Shown here piece by piece: positions 56,709 to 64,000 of a DNA stretch of 64,000 nt. Below the pieces are notes generated by a model. That model did no database searches. It saw nothing but the letters and a program-made list of their open reading frames with translations, and had not been told where the DNA came from. The DNA is taken from positions 92,163 to 156,162 of the forward strand of contig CACYWZ010000003.1 of the NCBI GenBank assembly GCA_902778325.1, read 5' to 3'. Numbering within the stretch: the first letter of the stretch is position 1; every line of letters begins with the position of its first letter. Source of the stretch: an uncultured Spirochaetaceae bacterium. GTDB taxonomy: Bacteria > Spirochaetota > Spirochaetia > Treponematales > Treponemataceae. The position numbers were made by a program, and so were the translations under genes.

Positions 56709-57234
56709 ATTTGTTATTGCAGTCCTTGCCAGCCTCGTCTCTGCACTTCTTTTCGCAGAGACACTTCCGACAGGCTATGGAAATGTCAAACTTGGAATGG
56801 ACGTTGACAGCGTGAAAAAAGCTCTGAAAAGCGTTCCTGATTTTGGCTATCGCGGAGAGCGCGATGTGTCGCTTTCCCCATCGAACAGCGAAGTCATCAT
56901 AGAAACAGATGCCACAAGGCTTTCTGCGTCGTTCTTTGACCGCTGCTGGTTTCAGTTTTACGAGAAAAATCTTTACATAATCACGCTCAACTTGAATCCA
57001 TCTCGAATCGATTACGGTTCAGTGTTCAAGAAACTTTGTGAAAAATACGGAAACCCCGATACCTTGAGCCCAGATAAATCTGTTTGGCAGTCTGACAGCG
57101 TGATATTGAGCCTTGAAAAGCCACTTGCGCTAAAATACGTCGATGCCGCGAAGTTCAAAAAATTGCAAGATTCGTCAAATGTCGAAAAAAGCGAGAGCGA
57201 AAAAAGTCGCGATAAATTCCTTGAAGGTCTGTGA
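56695..57234 (+). CDS. Secreted protein of unknown function
   Basis: A 179-aa protein from ATG 56695, inside the end of the cNMP gene, with CAGGAAG ahead. The signal peptide is MQKNRFVIAVLASLVSALLFA. The mature start LPTGYGNVKLGMDVDSVKKALKS resembles the beginning of several treponemal periplasmic proteins that have a short G..LGM....V...L motif, as in SmpA/OmlA-like or DUF4223-type domains. No catalytic residue can be named. It is translationally coupled to the DUF192 gene behind it (TGATG). Confidence 0.62.
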   Translation: MQKNRFVIAVLASLVSALLFAETLPTGYGNVKLGMDVDSVKKALKSVPDFGYRGERDVSLSPSNSEVIIETDATRLSASFFDRCWFQFYEKNLYIITLNLNPSRIDYGSVFKKLCEKYGNPDTLSPDKSVWQSDSVILSLEKPLALKYVDAAKFKKLQDSSNVEKSESEKSRDKFLEGL

Positions 57235-57695
57235 TGAAAGGTTTTTCAAAAAAAATTTTTTTTGTATTGATGATATTTTGTGCTTCTTTGTCGTTTTCAA
57301 AAGCAAAAAAGTTTGATTTGCCAAAAAAAGAGCTCGTCGTAACATGCAAAAACGGTGAGAAAATTACGATTACAGCTGAAATCGCGCGCTCAACAGAGGC
57401 TCGCAACTACGGTTTTATGGAGCGTGAGAATATTCCCGACGGCACAGGAATGCTTTTCGTGTTCGAAAACGACCAGATTTTGCGATTTTGGATGAAGAAC
57501 ACCCCAAGCCCTCTTTCGATTGCCTACATCGACAAGAGCGGCAGAATCAACGAGATTTTTGACATGAAACCATACAGCCTTGAGTCTGTCGAAGGCACGC
57601 GCTACGCCCGCTACGCGCTAGAAGTCCCTCAGGGCTACTTTTCCCGCGCAGGAATAAAGGCAGGCGATGTTATTGACTTGTCGTTCTTGAAATAA
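57234..57695 (+). CDS. Secreted DUF192 protein
   Basis: A 153-aa protein; ATG 57234 overlaps the previous stop (TGATG), with an adjacent GTG 57231 as alternative. Signal KKIFFVLMIFCASLSFSKA. The rest is one DUF192 domain: EIARSTEARNYGFMERENIPDGTGMLFVFENDQILRFWMKNTPSPLSIAYIDKSGRI, then LEVPQGYFSRAGIKAGDVIDL. The domain is found in small extracytoplasmic proteins of many bacteria; its role is unknown. Terminator follows at once. It is the last gene before the direct repeats. Confidence 0.88.
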   Translation: MKGFSKKIFFVLMIFCASLSFSKAKKFDLPKKELVVTCKNGEKITITAEIARSTEARNYGFMERENIPDGTGMLFVFENDQILRFWMKNTPSPLSIAYIDKSGRINEIFDMKPYSLESVEGTRYARYALEVPQGYFSRAGIKAGDVIDLSFLK

Positions 57696-57710
57696 TTTTT
57701 TTATCGATAG

Positions 57711-57756
57711 ATAGCCGCAGTTTTTCTTTCAAAAGAGAACTGCGGTATTTTTTTGT
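57711..57756 (+). terminator. Terminator of the DUF192 operon
   Basis: CCGCAGTTTTTCTTT ... AAAGAGAACTGCGG followed by T-rich DNA. Confidence 0.82.
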
Positions 57757-57771
57757 CTTTTGAAACTTTTT

Positions 57772-57963
57772 CCAAAAAAAACGAAATCTGAAATGAGCAT
57801 TGAAGCCTGACGAAAAAGGAGGTTATTTATTGAATGAGTATTGAAGCCTGAGCAAAAAAGAGGCGATTTATTGAATGAGTATTGAAGCCTGGCAAAAAAG
57901 GAAGCAATGTCAACTTGAATTTTGTCTCCTTTTTTAAAAAGGAAGCAAACTCAACTTTTTCAT
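57772..57963. repeat. Left direct repeat flanking the DdmDE-like cassette
   Basis: A 192-bp segment from CC-A8-CGAAATCTG to AACTTTTTCAT. It matches 63850-64000 almost base for base except for one extra internal 41-bp unit. It contains tandem pieces (ATTGAATGAGTATTGAAGCC) and a hairpin CTCCTTTTTT / AAAAAAGGAG-like. The remaining gap 57964-58123 holds a GACATTCCGAACTTGTTGCG dispersed-element fragment (57990) and no gene. Confidence 0.9.
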
Positions 57964-58100
57964 TCATTGTCTGCGCATGATGTTTTTTGACATTCCGAAC
58001 TTGTTGCGGAATCTATGCTTGCTTTCTTTGCATTACAGTATGGAGGCTCTTGGTATTTCTCTTTCGGAAAAAAGCAAAGTATGAATGTATGATGAACTGC

Positions 58101-58129
58101 TTACTAAAAATAGCAAAGCATTGTAAAAT
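58101..58129 (+). promoter_or_regulatory. Promoter of the DdmDE-like operon, apparently leaderless
   Basis: -10 TAAAAT (58124-58129) ends 6 nt before ATG 58136; weak -35 TTACTA at 17 bp. No RBS. Confidence 0.5.
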
Positions 58130-58135
58130 TAAAAT

Positions 58136-61100
58136 ATGTTACAATCAATTACTGATTTTATGAAAGCCAAAGAAGAAAATGGTCTTCTTTTAATAGACCC
58201 AAATACTGGAAGCGGAAAAACATATTCTGCTTGCCAAGCTATTTATAATTATGTTCATAATACTAAAAATCCAAAGAAAGTATATTTTACAACTACTCTT
58301 TTAAAGAATTTGCCTATTAAGGAATTAGAAAACTGCTATAACGAAAATAAAAATAGCAATTTTAGAAAAGAAGTTCTTGTGATAAAAGCAAATGTTAACT
58401 TTGTAAAAGAGAATCTTGAAAATGCAAATGTTCCTGAAGAGTATAAAAATGAAGAATACGAATATTTGCTTAATCTTGTAAAAGAAGCTACTTCAAAAGG
58501 GTTTGAAAATAAAAATCCAATTTATAAAGCTGAAATTGAGAAGCAACTTGAAAGTGCAGAACGTGCTTTTAGAAAACATTTAAAAGATATTGTTTCTAAG
58601 ATTGAAGGAACTCATGAAGAGAAAAAAAATAAAATCAGATATGATAAACGTTATAAATGGATAGGAGAGATTTATCCTACAGTTTTTACTGATGATTACA
58701 AAGTATATCTTCTTTCTGTAAAGAAACTTTTAACAAGAAATGATACTTTGATAAAGCGTAGCTATCATTTTATTTCTGCTGATAATTTGAAAAATGCTAT
58801 TATTTTTATTGACGAATTTGATGCAACAAAGAAAACAATACAGGATTCGCTTATAGAACAAGTAAAAAATACTGAGAATGATTATCTTGAGATAGTGAAA
58901 GAACTTCATTCAAAGCTGCACGACCATATACCTACAACAACTTCTTACGAGCCGTACAGAGCTTATGCAAAAAACAAGCCGAATCTTGATACTATTGAGT
59001 CGTTGCAAAAAAAAGCAGATTTGATTTTTGAAAAATATGCGCTTAATTTTAATTACAAAACAGAAAACGTTGATAGAAAAAGAGCTTTTTTGTTTTTTGA
59101 TGGCACATTTAGAAGTTATTTGAAGAATAATTGTCATTACATTAGAACTGTTATAGATAAAGAGAATAATAAAGTAAGTATTTTCTTTGAAACCAAATGT
59201 GATTACAATAAAAATAAGAATACTGAAACAGATATAAATATTTATTCCTTACTTAGAGATATTACAAGCTTCCTAAATGCTTTTGCAAAATTTGTTGAGC
59301 GTTGGGCAAGTGTATATGAAAGAGATGAAAATGAAAGAAGAAAGAAAAACTCTAAACTTTCAGAACTCTTTACAAATGAAAATGCGATAAAGACAATTTG
59401 TAACAATTATATAAAAGATGAGCATTTAAATGCTATTTTGCAAGATTTAGTGAAGTCTACGACTTTGAGAAATCGCAATGATAATAATATTGATGACATA
59501 ATTGGAGATGTTTCTTTTTACAATCGAGGTTTTAAATTCTTTGAATTTATAGACAGCGACAGCCATAATGAAGAAACAAAAATTCACTTTATTCAGCAAA
59601 ATGATACTCCTGAAAAAATTTTGCTCTTTATGGCGAATTATTGCAAAGTTATAGGTCTTTCTGCAACAGCAAAGATAGATTCTGTACTTTCTAATTATTC
59701 GCTTGACTATTTAGAAAACGAATTAAAAAAGAATTATATAGAGCTTTCTGAAAACGCATATAAAAGATTAAATGATGAGCAGCAAAAAAAATGGACTTTG
59801 TATAAAGCAGGCAAAATAAAAGTCAATGTTTTATCTGTTGATAAAGATGTAGAAAATAAAACTGTAAAAGATAGGTTGAAGCTTATCGCAGAAGATTCTG
59901 ATGTTGCTCAAAATATGCTAACAAAGCTGAACAATCTTGATTTGTCAGACAAAGATAACAATAAGAATTATTATCTCAGGCGATATTGTAATGTTTTTTC
60001 TGTGATAAAAGAATTTATTGAGAATGATGATATAAAATCTTTTCTATGCTTAAATATGGCATTGCCTAAAACTGACAATGAGAAGTTTGGCTTAAACATA
60101 TTCAAAGATTTTTCAGAACAGTATTGTGAAGTTCACGATAAGGAAAAACTTAATATAAGAGTGCTTGAGAGCAAAAACTTTGAAACGGAAAAGAATTCTG
60201 TTTTGGAAGATCTTGCTGCTGGAAAGAAAATATTTGTATTTTCGTCTTATCAAACAATTGGTGCGGGGCAAAACCTGCAATACAAACTTCCAGATACAGA
60301 AAAAGACAAGATTATTTCTCTTTGCTGTGATAGAGGTGATGATAAAGAAAAAGATTTTGACGCAATTTATCTAGGTGATGTTACAAACGTAATAACTAAT
60401 TTTAGCGAGAAAAAAGATTTGACAGAGCTTTTGACATTCTTGTTTGAGATACGCTATCTGTATGAGAATAATGAAATCAGTCCAAGAGAGTTGAAGGAAC
60501 TTGTTGAATTTGGCTTCAAGGCGTATTCAAAAGAAAAGAATTGCTATAATCCTGTTGATATTATTAATACTGCAAGTGCAAGAAGAAAACTTACGAGGGA
60601 TGTAATTCAAGCTATTGGCAGACTTTGCAGAACGAACAACAAAAAAGAGAATATCTATATTTACACAGACAATGATTTGCTTTCTAAACTTGATATAAAC
60701 TGTGTGAAAACAGATTATATGAATCCAGAACTAAAAGCATTGTTTGATTTTGCAAAGGGATGTTCTCAGCCGCTTCCAAGTGAAAAAACTAAACTTGAAA
60801 ATGAGGCTTGCAGAAAATCAGAGCTGGCAAATCATTATATAAAGGCAATGCTCCAACGTGATTGGACAGACAGAAGTATGCAGCTGTGGAAAGAGCTTCG
60901 AAAATGTGTTTTGAAATATCCGACCGCTTCAAAGGAGATTTTTGATACAAACGACATTGTAAAGAATTTTTACATTCCGAATTATGAAAATAAATCTGTT
61001 TATCATTATGCACAAAGAGGCGATTTCCAAGAGATAAAAATAAACTTGTTCCAAGATTATTCAGAGTTCAAAAAAGAGCTTGACGATGATTATATGCCTA

Positions 61101-61615
61101 TGATTGTAAGTGAAGACTCTGCAAGATTGAAAAAGCTTTTCACATATAAGGGGCTAAAACAATTTTTTGAGCAAAGAGGATTTGCAACAGAATTTGGAAA
61201 TGAAGATTTTATTCTTTGCCCTGTGTTGTTTAACAATATCTATAAAGGTGCATTAGGAGAAGTTACAGGTAAGTTTGTTCTTGATAAAGAATTGAATACA
61301 GAGATAAAAGAAATTACAAATCCTGATTATTTTGAGTTCTTTGATTTTGAGCTTAAAGACGGGATTTATATTGATTTCAAGCACTGGAAAACAGCTTTGC
61401 TCATAGGAAAAGAGAGTTATATAAAGCATATTGCTAACAAGCTGGAAAAAATTGGTGGCAAAAAAGCGTATGTGATAAACATTCTAAAAGAAGCCGATTA
61501 TGAAATAAAGCAAATCGGCAGTATTGTAGAGATTCCATATCTTATCGATGATAATGGAACGGTTAACGAAAAAGCTATAAAAAAGATTGCAGAGGATATG
61601 ATAAATGAAAAATAA
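58136..61615 (+). CDS. ddmD: DdmD-like SF2 helicase with C-terminal PD-(D/E)XK-like nuclease
   Basis: A 1159-aa protein. Helicase motifs in order: Walker A DPNTGSGKT (Lys28), motif II DEFD in IIFIDEFDATK (~226), motif III GLSATAK (~508), motif V-like FSSYQTIGAGQNLQ (~700), motif VI QAIGRLCRT (~825). Near the end, GALGEVTG (~1042) and GIYIDFKHWK (Asp1080, Lys1082) form a PD-(D/E)XK-like site 77 residues from the C-terminus. Helicase plus nuclease of this size, followed by an Argonaute-like partner, matches DdmD of the Vibrio cholerae plasmid-elimination system; that its nuclease Lys lies similarly close to the end is from memory. Very AT-rich compared with its neighbours, suggesting transfer. 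Other helicase-nuclease defence proteins remain possible. Confidence 0.68.
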   Translation: MLQSITDFMKAKEENGLLLIDPNTGSGKTYSACQAIYNYVHNTKNPKKVYFTTTLLKNLPIKELENCYNENKNSNFRKEVLVIKANVNFVKENLENANVPEEYKNEEYEYLLNLVKEATSKGFENKNPIYKAEIEKQLESAERAFRKHLKDIVSKIEGTHEEKKNKIRYDKRYKWIGEIYPTVFTDDYKVYLLSVKKLLTRNDTLIKRSYHFISADNLKNAIIFIDEFDATKKTIQDSLIEQVKNTENDYLEIVKELHSKLHDHIPTTTSYEPYRAYAKNKPNLDTIESLQKKADLIFEKYALNFNYKTENVDRKRAFLFFDGTFRSYLKNNCHYIRTVIDKENNKVSIFFETKCDYNKNKNTETDINIYSLLRDITSFLNAFAKFVERWASVYERDENERRKKNSKLSELFTNENAIKTICNNYIKDEHLNAILQDLVKSTTLRNRNDNNIDDIIGDVSFYNRGFKFFEFIDSDSHNEETKIHFIQQNDTPEKILLFMANYCKVIGLSATAKIDSVLSNYSLDYLENELKKNYIELSENAYKRLNDEQQKKWTLYKAGKIKVNVLSVDKDVENKTVKDRLKLIAEDSDVAQNMLTKLNNLDLSDKDNNKNYYLRRYCNVFSVIKEFIENDDIKSFLCLNMALPKTDNEKFGLNIFKDFSEQYCEVHDKEKLNIRVLESKNFETEKNSVLEDLAAGKKIFVFSSYQTIGAGQNLQYKLPDTEKDKIISLCCDRGDDKEKDFDAIYLGDVTNVITNFSEKKDLTELLTFLFEIRYLYENNEISPRELKELVEFGFKAYSKEKNCYNPVDIINTASARRKLTRDVIQAIGRLCRTNNKKENIYIYTDNDLLSKLDINCVKTDYMNPELKALFDFAKGCSQPLPSEKTKLENEACRKSELANHYIKAMLQRDWTDRSMQLWKELRKCVLKYPTASKEIFDTNDIVKNFYIPNYENKSVYHYAQRGDFQEIKINLFQDYSEFKKELDDDYMPMIVSEDSARLKKLFTYKGLKQFFEQRGFATEFGNEDFILCPVLFNNIYKGALGEVTGKFVLDKELNTEIKEITNPDYFEFFDFELKDGIYIDFKHWKTALLIGKESYIKHIANKLEKIGGKKAYVINILKEADYEIKQIGSIVEIPYLIDDNGTVNEKAIKKIAEDMINEK

Positions 61616-63758
61616 TTTTGCTCAGAACAAATATCCTATTTATACAAATAATTTTGATATTCATATTAACAGGGAGAATGTTGCTGAACAATATACGATT
61701 TTCCAAATAGGAACAAAAGAATCTTTTTTCAAGACAAACGTGCTTGATATTGCAGTTGATAAATTTAAAGCTCAATCTGTTGCGTATTATAATAGCAATC
61801 GCTGGTTTGCTATGTTTAATAAAGCTTCGATATCTTTTAATGAGTTTAGAACTTCAGTACAAGAAATAGATGATACTTCGATTGTGAATGAAGTTGATTT
61901 ATTTGATACAGATAAAGATAGTCATAAAAATATACAAGATGTTGAATTAGCACAACTTTTAGTTAATTCTCTAAAGAACAGAAAAAGAGATAAGTTCTCT
62001 TATAATAATATTACAGGCTCTTTATTTTATACTTTTGATAGAAATGAAAATTCAAAGTCGATTAAAATGTTAAAACTTAGGTTTTATAAGCCAAGTCAAG
62101 CAAGTATGATTATAGCTTTGCAGGCAGAAATTAAAACATTTTCTGAATATAATGCTCTTAAAAAGTATCATAGAAATACAAAGAAGAATTATACTTTTGA
62201 TACAAAGACAGGAGAATTTAGACATGCTTTGAAATCTGATACTGATAAAGATTTAAAGTTCTATGATGAAGGTGTATTGTCAAGAAATAAAGATAGAACA
62301 AAATTTCTTGATTTTTCATCGAATACTAACTTTTCTAATTCAAAAGTTGGAAAAATCGCAAGTTTCTTAAAAGATACAAAAGAAAAAATCGGAAATTTTA
62401 TACAAATATCTCAAATACCAATCTATGAATATAATTCATATGAAGAGCCTTTGAATGATTATGAAAATAAAGATTATGCAGTATTTTTGCAAAACAGAGG
62501 CATTTGTGTTGTTGATACAATAAAAGATGCCGACTCAAAAGCGAAAAGAAAGCTTATTTGTGACTTTTTAAAGAAGAATTATAATGTACAAAAAATCTCT
62601 AAAGTTCGTGAGCAGGGGAAATACGTTATTGAAATCATTCACGAGAAAGACAGTGATTATTACACTCCCAAAGCAGATGAATTGAATATAAAATTAGACC
62701 AGCATAATTTTTTCTCAAGCGATGATATTATTCAGCACATAACCGTAGAGAATTTTGAGATCAAGTATAAAAAAGATATTTTACAGAAATCTATACAGGA
62801 GTTGATTATAAAAGGAGATATATACGATAGACAAATTTCTATTACAAATTGGAGAGAATCTAAAGAATGGAATTTTGTTTGTTGTGGAACTGGACAAGGA
62901 ACAAAGCCGTATTCATTTACATATTATAAGTTAAATATCACCAAAACTGGAAAATTGTCTATTGAAACTTTTGATACAAAGAAATTTTCTGAAGCAACAG
63001 AAGAATGGAAATGTATTGATTATGTTTTCAGTCATTACAATGAGGGTAATAAGAATAAAAACACATGTGTAGAATCTATTATCTATAACAATATTGATGA
63101 AATCAATGTAATTTGCGGAACTGGACAATTTACTCTTCCGAATATTGAGAACATTTCAAAGGAACTTGATTTGTCTGATAATAAAAAAACTATTGAAAAA
63201 AATGAATTAAAAGATTATATCAACGAATTTGCGAAATCAAGAAATTTCTCAGAAGAAGAAAAAGAACCTTTAAAAAAGATTTTGGAAAATATTGAAAGCT
63301 GTTGTAGCAACAGAATTTCATACTCTGATATTTTTCGCAACTATGAAGACAAAAATAAATCTCTATACAGAAAAAAGATTGTTCAAGAGTTTAATGAATG
63401 GGTAAAACTTTCAAAAGGAATTCTTTTGCATGAACAATTACGAGGAAAAAATGCATATAAGAATTTCAATTCATTTTTATGGATAAAATCGACGGAATTA
63501 AATGGAATTTTCAAATATTTCGTTGGAAAGAAAAAAAATTCAGTTCAATTATCACTAGCAACTACATGCAGAATTTATGATGTGATTCCGTGGAATAAAG
63601 AGGGAATAAATCTTGACGGAAAGATTCTTTTTGATGAATTTGCACATATGCTTACAGTTGAGTTTGTGAGAAATGGGCAGTATACTGTTTTACCTTTCCC
63701 TGTAAAGTACTTGAGAGAATATATCCGTTTCTGTGAGAAAGATATTGATTTTGACTGA
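61605..63758 (+). CDS. ddmE: DdmE-like (inactive prokaryotic Argonaute-like) protein
   Basis: A 717-aa soluble protein overlapping the helicase gene by 11 nt, with AGAGGA before ATG 61605. Most of the chain has no motif I recognise. The last ~100 residues (LSLATTCRIYDV, then FAHMLTVEFVRNGQYTVLPFPVKYLREYIRF) resemble the end of PIWI domains, where a LP.P..YA-like segment closes the fold. No convincing catalytic DEDX tetrad is visible. Size, position directly after a DdmD-like helicase-nuclease and the PIWI-like end fit DdmE, which binds guide DNA and recruits DdmD to plasmids. The assignment rests mainly on context. Confidence 0.55.
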   Translation: MKNNFAQNKYPIYTNNFDIHINRENVAEQYTIFQIGTKESFFKTNVLDIAVDKFKAQSVAYYNSNRWFAMFNKASISFNEFRTSVQEIDDTSIVNEVDLFDTDKDSHKNIQDVELAQLLVNSLKNRKRDKFSYNNITGSLFYTFDRNENSKSIKMLKLRFYKPSQASMIIALQAEIKTFSEYNALKKYHRNTKKNYTFDTKTGEFRHALKSDTDKDLKFYDEGVLSRNKDRTKFLDFSSNTNFSNSKVGKIASFLKDTKEKIGNFIQISQIPIYEYNSYEEPLNDYENKDYAVFLQNRGICVVDTIKDADSKAKRKLICDFLKKNYNVQKISKVREQGKYVIEIIHEKDSDYYTPKADELNIKLDQHNFFSSDDIIQHITVENFEIKYKKDILQKSIQELIIKGDIYDRQISITNWRESKEWNFVCCGTGQGTKPYSFTYYKLNITKTGKLSIETFDTKKFSEATEEWKCIDYVFSHYNEGNKNKNTCVESIIYNNIDEINVICGTGQFTLPNIENISKELDLSDNKKTIEKNELKDYINEFAKSRNFSEEEKEPLKKILENIESCCSNRISYSDIFRNYEDKNKSLYRKKIVQEFNEWVKLSKGILLHEQLRGKNAYKNFNSFLWIKSTELNGIFKYFVGKKKNSVQLSLATTCRIYDVIPWNKEGINLDGKILFDEFAHMLTVEFVRNGQYTVLPFPVKYLREYIRFCEKDIDFD

Positions 63759-63784
63759 TGTTTTATGCACTAAAAACAAACGAA

Positions 63785-63815
63785 AAGCGCTCCGAGAATA
63801 TCGGGGCGTTTTTTT
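63785..63815 (+). terminator. Terminator of the DdmDE-like operon
   Basis: CGCTCCGA-GAATA-TCGGGGCG followed by T7, 27 nt after the stop. Confidence 0.85.
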
Positions 63816-63849
63816 GTGCCTTTTTGAAAACTGAAAACGAGGGCGGAAG

Positions 63850-64000
63850 CCAAAAAAAACGAAATCTGAAATGAGCATTGAAGCCTGACGAAAAAGGAAG
63901 TGATTTATTGAATGAGTATTGAAGCCTGGCAAAAAAGGAAGCAATGTCAACTTGAATTTTGTCTCCTTTTTTAAAAAGGAAGCAAACTCAACTTTTTCAT
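63850..64000. repeat. Right direct repeat flanking the DdmDE-like cassette (cut by window end)
   Basis: 151 bp to the window edge, matching 57772-57963 but lacking one 41-bp internal unit. The match runs to the last base seen, so the repeat may continue. Confidence 0.9.

Follow-up and report, generated by a model that had tools for sequence, protein, structure and literature searches.

The 64,000-nucleotide stretch analysed here (the window) comes from an uncultured Spirochaetaceae bacterium assigned to the Treponemataceae (assembly GCA_902778325.1, contig CACYWZ010000003.1, positions 92,163 to 156,162 of the forward strand), and close to its right-hand end lie two plus-strand genes that very probably constitute a DdmDE operon of the plasmid-destroying type, a divergent member of a known family rather than a new system. 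The first, ddmD (58136..61615), encodes a predicted SF2 helicase with a C-terminal PD-(D/E)XK nuclease (1159 amino acids, aa), and the second, ddmE (61605..63758), a predicted Argonaute-like protein of 717 aa. Both reading frames, reported as overlapping genes in a preliminary description made from the sequence alone, were confirmed; they are intact, run in the order ddmD then ddmE, and share 11 nt, an overlap from which it follows that the two are probably translated together. The likely ribosome-binding site of ddmE, AGAGGA (61591..61596, plus strand), is located by sequence within the 3' end of ddmD, and the ATG follows 8 nt later. Shuffling the bases of the operon 200 times gave no stop-free run longer than 176 codons in any of the six frames, compared with the 1159 and 717 observed. 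Comparison of the window with each of two Treponema relatives places most differences at codon position 3 and fewest at position 2, and this third-position excess suggests purifying selection. A hairpin scan placed an intrinsic-terminator-like hairpin 24 bp past the ddmE stop (63782..63814, plus strand), which is weak by itself given one found and 1.7 expected by chance; positions 63775-63815 are 95% identical to a segment of another contig of the same genome (C42:19468-19508) that directly trails a gene end there. An Rfam scan of 57000-64000 returned no family at gathering score.

The first protein is matched by the PADLOC DdmD model at an expectation value (E) of 1.6e-48 and its top match in the PDB is 9ix4, a chain named DdmD (E 4.2e-71); DdmD is therefore its best match by both routes, as the preliminary description had anticipated. 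A second PDB group, at about 7e-43, carries the name 'Helicase/UvrB N-terminal domain-containing protein' in entries shared with DdmE-named chains, and we take it to be the Vibrio cholerae DdmD; beyond the DdmD chains the next match lies at E 0.05. A DdmD profile matches the solved proteins at 1.1e-172 and 1e-118, spanning positions 6-1136 and 4-1148 of 1150 and hence running through the C-terminal part. Conservation of the functional residues was assessed among the window DdmD and 81 related loci, which were collected with an alignment query on GTDB species genomes (148 matches, of which 80 were kept) plus one from viral contigs. In these 82 aligned sequences the helicase motifs comprise K28 (motif I), IDEFD 225-229 (II), SAT 509-511 (III) and QAIGRLCR 825-832 (VI), and the nuclease residues E1042, E1067, D1070 and D1080-F-K1082. 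Identity is complete (82/82) in 13 of the 15 motif columns (K28, D226, E227, S509, A510, Q825, R829, R832, E1042, E1067, D1070, D1080 and K1082), and the remaining two, G27 and T511, are identical in 81/82. Motif V, around G711 and N713, is invariant in a 41-row alignment of the window and 40 hand-picked loci of the 81. By sequence, then, the protein is a DdmD with an N-terminal SF2 helicase (motifs I, II, III and VI) and a C-terminal PD-(D/E)XK nuclease, and the motifs I, II, III, V and VI and nuclease site originally proposed fall in columns conserved across DdmDs.

The Pfam and NCBIfam matches of this protein all lie under cut-off (ResIII 0.003, DEAD 0.03, DinG 0.8), and they lend what favour there is to the idea of a DNA-repair or restriction helicase (DinG, type III Res) beside an unrelated gene. 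Such an arrangement is vanishingly improbable, given that the DdmD matches are stronger by tens of orders of magnitude and extend through the nuclease, and that loci named for several phyla carry the same gene pair.

For the second protein NCBIfam and PADLOC gave no match, and Pfam gives a weak, below-cut-off EF-hand match only. Searched alone against the PDB (phmmer, E up to 1) it returned four matches, all of them DdmE, including 9iw3 (5.3e-12) and V. cholerae DdmE (1.4e-5). A profile of 62 DdmEs found V. cholerae DdmE at 5e-44 and, more strongly, 9iw3 at 1.8e-73, the latter over positions 2-672 of 678; the next PDB match lay at 0.07. The alignment behind this profile holds the window protein and 61 of the 70 DdmE-bearing loci; a truncated copy (L026), a split one (L075) and copies judged by eye to be near-identical (L045, L080, L084, L087, L088, L089 and L092) were set aside. 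The 'PIWI-like end' of the preliminary description corresponds to a family signature, a C-terminal TVxPFPxKYLREY block common to solved DdmE. These matches indicate homology to solved DdmE, and hence an Argonaute-like protein; the MID-PIWI fold that the preliminary description had named as supporting evidence is reached only by way of that homology, through the four PDB matches and the span of the profile over 9iw3. Beyond residue 405 the sole acidic column conserved above 71% in the 62-sequence alignment is E705, near the C-terminus, so that no Argonaute catalytic tetrad is evident. This supports, but does not prove, a catalytically inactive PIWI, and the protein is probably guide-binding without nuclease activity.

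A related arrangement is ApsAB of E. coli, which destabilises plasmids and, in the available text of PMC11096173, pairs a related helicase-nuclease (ApsA) with a different Argonaute-like partner (ApsB) reported to lack sequence similarity to DdmE. The window DdmE does fit a loose Y-x3-K..QG..K pattern resembling an ApsB motif; the pattern is present in just 6 of the 62 relatives, however, with K at the column of K330 in 9/62, and is not a family motif. ApsA is also longer, with its nuclease lysine at residue 1435 (ApsA and ApsB being set apart here by description). As sequence homology ties the second protein to solved DdmE, an ApsAB-like system is a very improbable reading of the pair.

The closest characterised counterpart is the system of PDB entries 9ix4, 9iw3 and 9ixm, presumably that of L. 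casei, which gives the best match of both window proteins and resembles them in product size (1192 and 715 aa), helicase motifs and the DdmE C-terminal block, while differing in that its sequence is distant and that the window pair is spirochaetal and lies between repeats. The V. cholerae system, which we take to be that of 8u0u, 8u3k, 9bf1, 9ezy and others (9ezy chain B alone carries the species name), shares the architecture and motif residues, with K28 and K1082 of the window aligning with its DdmD residues 55 and 1102 (counted by eye), although it is more distant from the window than the 9ix4/9iw3/9ixm system. The matches of both proteins to solved DdmD and DdmE, in intact frames, thus uphold the assignment as a divergent DdmDE member.

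The gene pairing is a regular feature of the family. DdmE is present in 70 of the 81 related loci, and in 69 of these the gap after ddmD is -71 to +3 bp; among the 11 loci without DdmE, five have less than 600 bp of sequence past ddmD. The nearest relatives of the window are in two Treponema bins, Treponema sp. RGIG6705 (L022; DdmD 60% and DdmE 52% identical) and an uncultured Treponema (L023; 56% and 47%), and the three DdmDs form one group with a Shimodaira-Hasegawa-like approximate likelihood ratio test (SH-aLRT) support of 100. Several loci show variant arrangements. In L075 (11452-16094) ddmE is apparently split by two opposite-strand genes, by eye an insertion-sequence pair, and in L021 (5634-10918), found in a genome (G474) that belongs to a different family of the phylum, ddmD occupies two reading frames and is followed by ddmE. 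Three loci (L016, L017 and L018) have ddmD on annotated plasmids, with a clear ddmE in L016 and with parA/parB and a replication gene beside the ddmD of L018.

Several observations weigh against a straightforward DdmDE assignment. The PADLOC DdmE model does not call the window DdmE, whose sequence differs from the family consensus at some of the conserved columns (V341 for N, K447 for P, S462 for F and Y658 for R). At E 0.01 this model found 21 of the 62 DdmEs and missed 41, that of the window among them, whereas the DdmD model found 40 of 41 DdmDs, so that searches needing both models could miss many systems. No regulator gene adjoins the operon on the left (on the right the contig ends), whereas V. 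cholerae ddmDE sits on Vibrio pathogenicity island 2 (VPI-2) with a WYL-domain gene upstream (available text of PMC12409362), of which none was seen by the window operon. Finally, six loci (L085, L095, L096, L100, L097 and L041) have DdmD and about 8 kb of sequence after it, yet no DdmE, from which it follows that the ddmD-ddmE pair is not universal. The DdmD catalytic residues are intact in all six, and four of these DdmDs (L085, L095, L096 and L100) form one group with support 100. A DdmE profile search of the six genomes found none, with two of two controls positive; because all six are metagenome bins of 1.5-2.0 Mb, absence of DdmE is not certain. The solo DdmD of L097 has a type III Res-like gene directly upstream.

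In characterised DdmDE systems, a guided DdmE recruits DdmD, which unwinds and cuts the plasmid (available text of PMC12409362); the same mechanism is given in the accessible part of PMC12904381, one sentence of which swaps the names DdmD and DdmE. By analogy with this published work on other DdmDE systems, from which we infer guide use, recruitment and plasmid loss, the DdmE of the window, lacking nuclease activity of its own, would bind short DNA guides and find matching plasmid DNA. Guide-loaded DdmE would then recruit DdmD, which might load on the displaced strand and translocate 5' to 3' by means of its SF2 helicase, and cutting by the PD-(D/E)XK nuclease would lead to loss of the plasmid. 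The operon could alternatively be directed mainly at other mobile DNA, such as phages or conjugative elements, and not at small plasmids. Some ddmD relatives are plasmid-borne, one of them together with a clear ddmE, an arrangement that would be consistent with elements competing with one another. Against this, the characterised DdmDE acts mainly on small plasmids (PMC12409362, in the text available) and ApsAB also acts on plasmids, and a main target other than small plasmids is accordingly unlikely. Carriage by phages is not indicated, because the alignment-based, pattern-based scan of viral contigs gave one relative and a tblastn search with the window DdmD found no relative in the phage collection. 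Single-sequence scans of genome contigs with the window DdmD and of viral contigs with the window DdmE likewise returned nothing.

The operon is embedded in DNA of contrasting composition, the guanine-plus-cytosine (GC) content of its genes being 0.299 and 0.277 against 0.457 for window positions 1-57695. It is bracketed by two directly oriented copies of a dispersed genomic repeat. The left copy (57772..58014), upstream of ddmD, starts with units of about 41 bp, and the right copy (63850..64000), 97% identical over 79 bp and 95% over 131 bp, is cut by the contig end. The same repeat occurs on other contigs of this genome (C42, C13, C54, C50, C32, C25 and others); it was not found in the available stretches around the operons of the two Treponema relatives, L022 and L023, which differ from the window in this respect. 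An integron-like cassette, considered by eye for the flanking repeats with no integrase search made, was dropped, as the copies are spread over many contigs. To the left of the operon are ordinary chromosomal genes, a DUF192 gene among them, and further neighbours that we take to be a CRP-type regulator, murB and cysS. The last 93 bp of the window contig equal the first 93 bp of C42, and this end identity suggests, without proving, that C42 continues the contig; if so, the next gene would encode a DeoR-type regulator, followed by genes that by eye resemble those for fructose uptake.

This setting raises the question of whether assembly or binning attached the operon to Treponema DNA by way of the repeat alone. 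The left repeat is indeed all that connects it to the chromosome; the contig stops within the right copy, and operon and chromosome differ in base composition. A wrong contig is still quite improbable: the nearest two relatives of the operon come from Treponema bins, one of them lying well inside a 123-kb contig, the flanking repeat recurs elsewhere in the same genome, and the record of Treponema bryantii NK4A124 carries three operons. An empty site was sought in eight Treponema relatives, whose neighbouring genes were matched by eye from the initial residues of their products. Six of them have DUF192 on the plus strand and, immediately after it, an oppositely oriented gene encoding 381-384 aa. 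L118 has its next two genes on the plus strand, with their order reversed, and in L120 DUF192 is on the minus strand with the 381-384 aa gene beside it. No clean empty site could be defined among the eight. The version of that gene in the genome of the window encodes a TPR protein and is found at C42:16387-17550, 16 kb from the contig-overlapping end of C42, and the gene block adjoining DUF192 in relatives sits on C42 in the opposite order. The position of the TPR gene on C42 indicates that rearrangement as well as insertion probably took place. The operon itself was probably acquired horizontally.

The preliminary description had proposed that the pair broadens the system to treponemes. This is right, yet the window is not a lone case, since three copies occur in T. 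bryantii NK4A124 and others in the two Treponema bins. DdmDE is nevertheless rare and patchy in the treponeme group. Of 201 genomes in the genus, six, that of the window included, have a strong DdmD or DdmE (E-values judged by the author), with a strong DdmD in five (partial in G547) and a strong DdmE in five; a sixth DdmE genome, at 8.6e-4, was not counted as strong. The raw matches, in 57 of the 201, include 52 weak-only genomes (E above 1e-6, mostly the Walker A of other helicases). Across the phylum the PADLOC DdmD model matches 3 of 392 genomes, and with the window DdmD as query only the genome of the window itself matched among 147 relative genomes.

The DdmD tree comprises 73 of the 81 loci, the window and L016 (L030, L045, L080, L084, L087, L088, L092 and L102 were left out); it was built quickly, with a single support measure and midpoint rooting, and the tool flagged some rows for long branches and odd composition. 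By title its rows include Bacillota, Bacteroidota, Cyanobacteriota, Spirochaetota, Fibrobacterota, Pseudomonadota, Mycoplasmatota and archaea labelled Methanobacteriota, many of them metagenome bins. The window and the two Treponema bins join Anaerobium (Lachnospiraceae) at support 80. The three operons in the T. bryantii record (L052, L054 and L072) fall on at least two separate branches, one copy joining Clostridia (100) and the other two grouping with an Alphaproteobacteria bin and a Bacteroidia bin (99-100). The L054 operon is flanked by a YhcG-type nuclease gene and a gene with PLD-like and helicase domains. For the Spirochaetota label, over five labelled rows, the starred branches force at least three changes, and 37 of 500 label shuffles reached the observed four or fewer; label changes alone, the tool cautions, are no proof of transfer. 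The occurrence of treponeme DdmDs at several places in the tree, coupled with their rare and patchy distribution, suggests as the simplest reading that treponemes acquired DdmDE repeatedly. A wider and more doubtful proposal is that DdmDE of gut treponemes might be a movable cassette, obtained repeatedly from other phyla and parked between repeat copies, where recombination would gain or drop it, and that elsewhere a separate DdmD branch might work without DdmE.

In the open literature searched, DdmDE was not found together with Treponema or Spirochaet-; some main DdmDE papers lie beyond that search, and no first report is claimed. Likewise, among the matches listed for Treponema and Argonaute, no title concerned DdmDE. 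PMC11096173, in its available part, has a tree of ApsA and DdmD, with the taxa in a figure and supplement.

Collectively these results place an anti-plasmid Argonaute system in spirochaetes, into which plasmids are hard to introduce. They make several divergent DdmDE pairs available to compare, a single strain record contributing three, and the plasmid-borne ddmD genes would represent an anti-plasmid system that is itself carried by plasmids. Since one detection model overlooks about two thirds of the DdmEs collected here, DdmDE counts relying on that model are probably low, and the system is probably more widespread than they imply.

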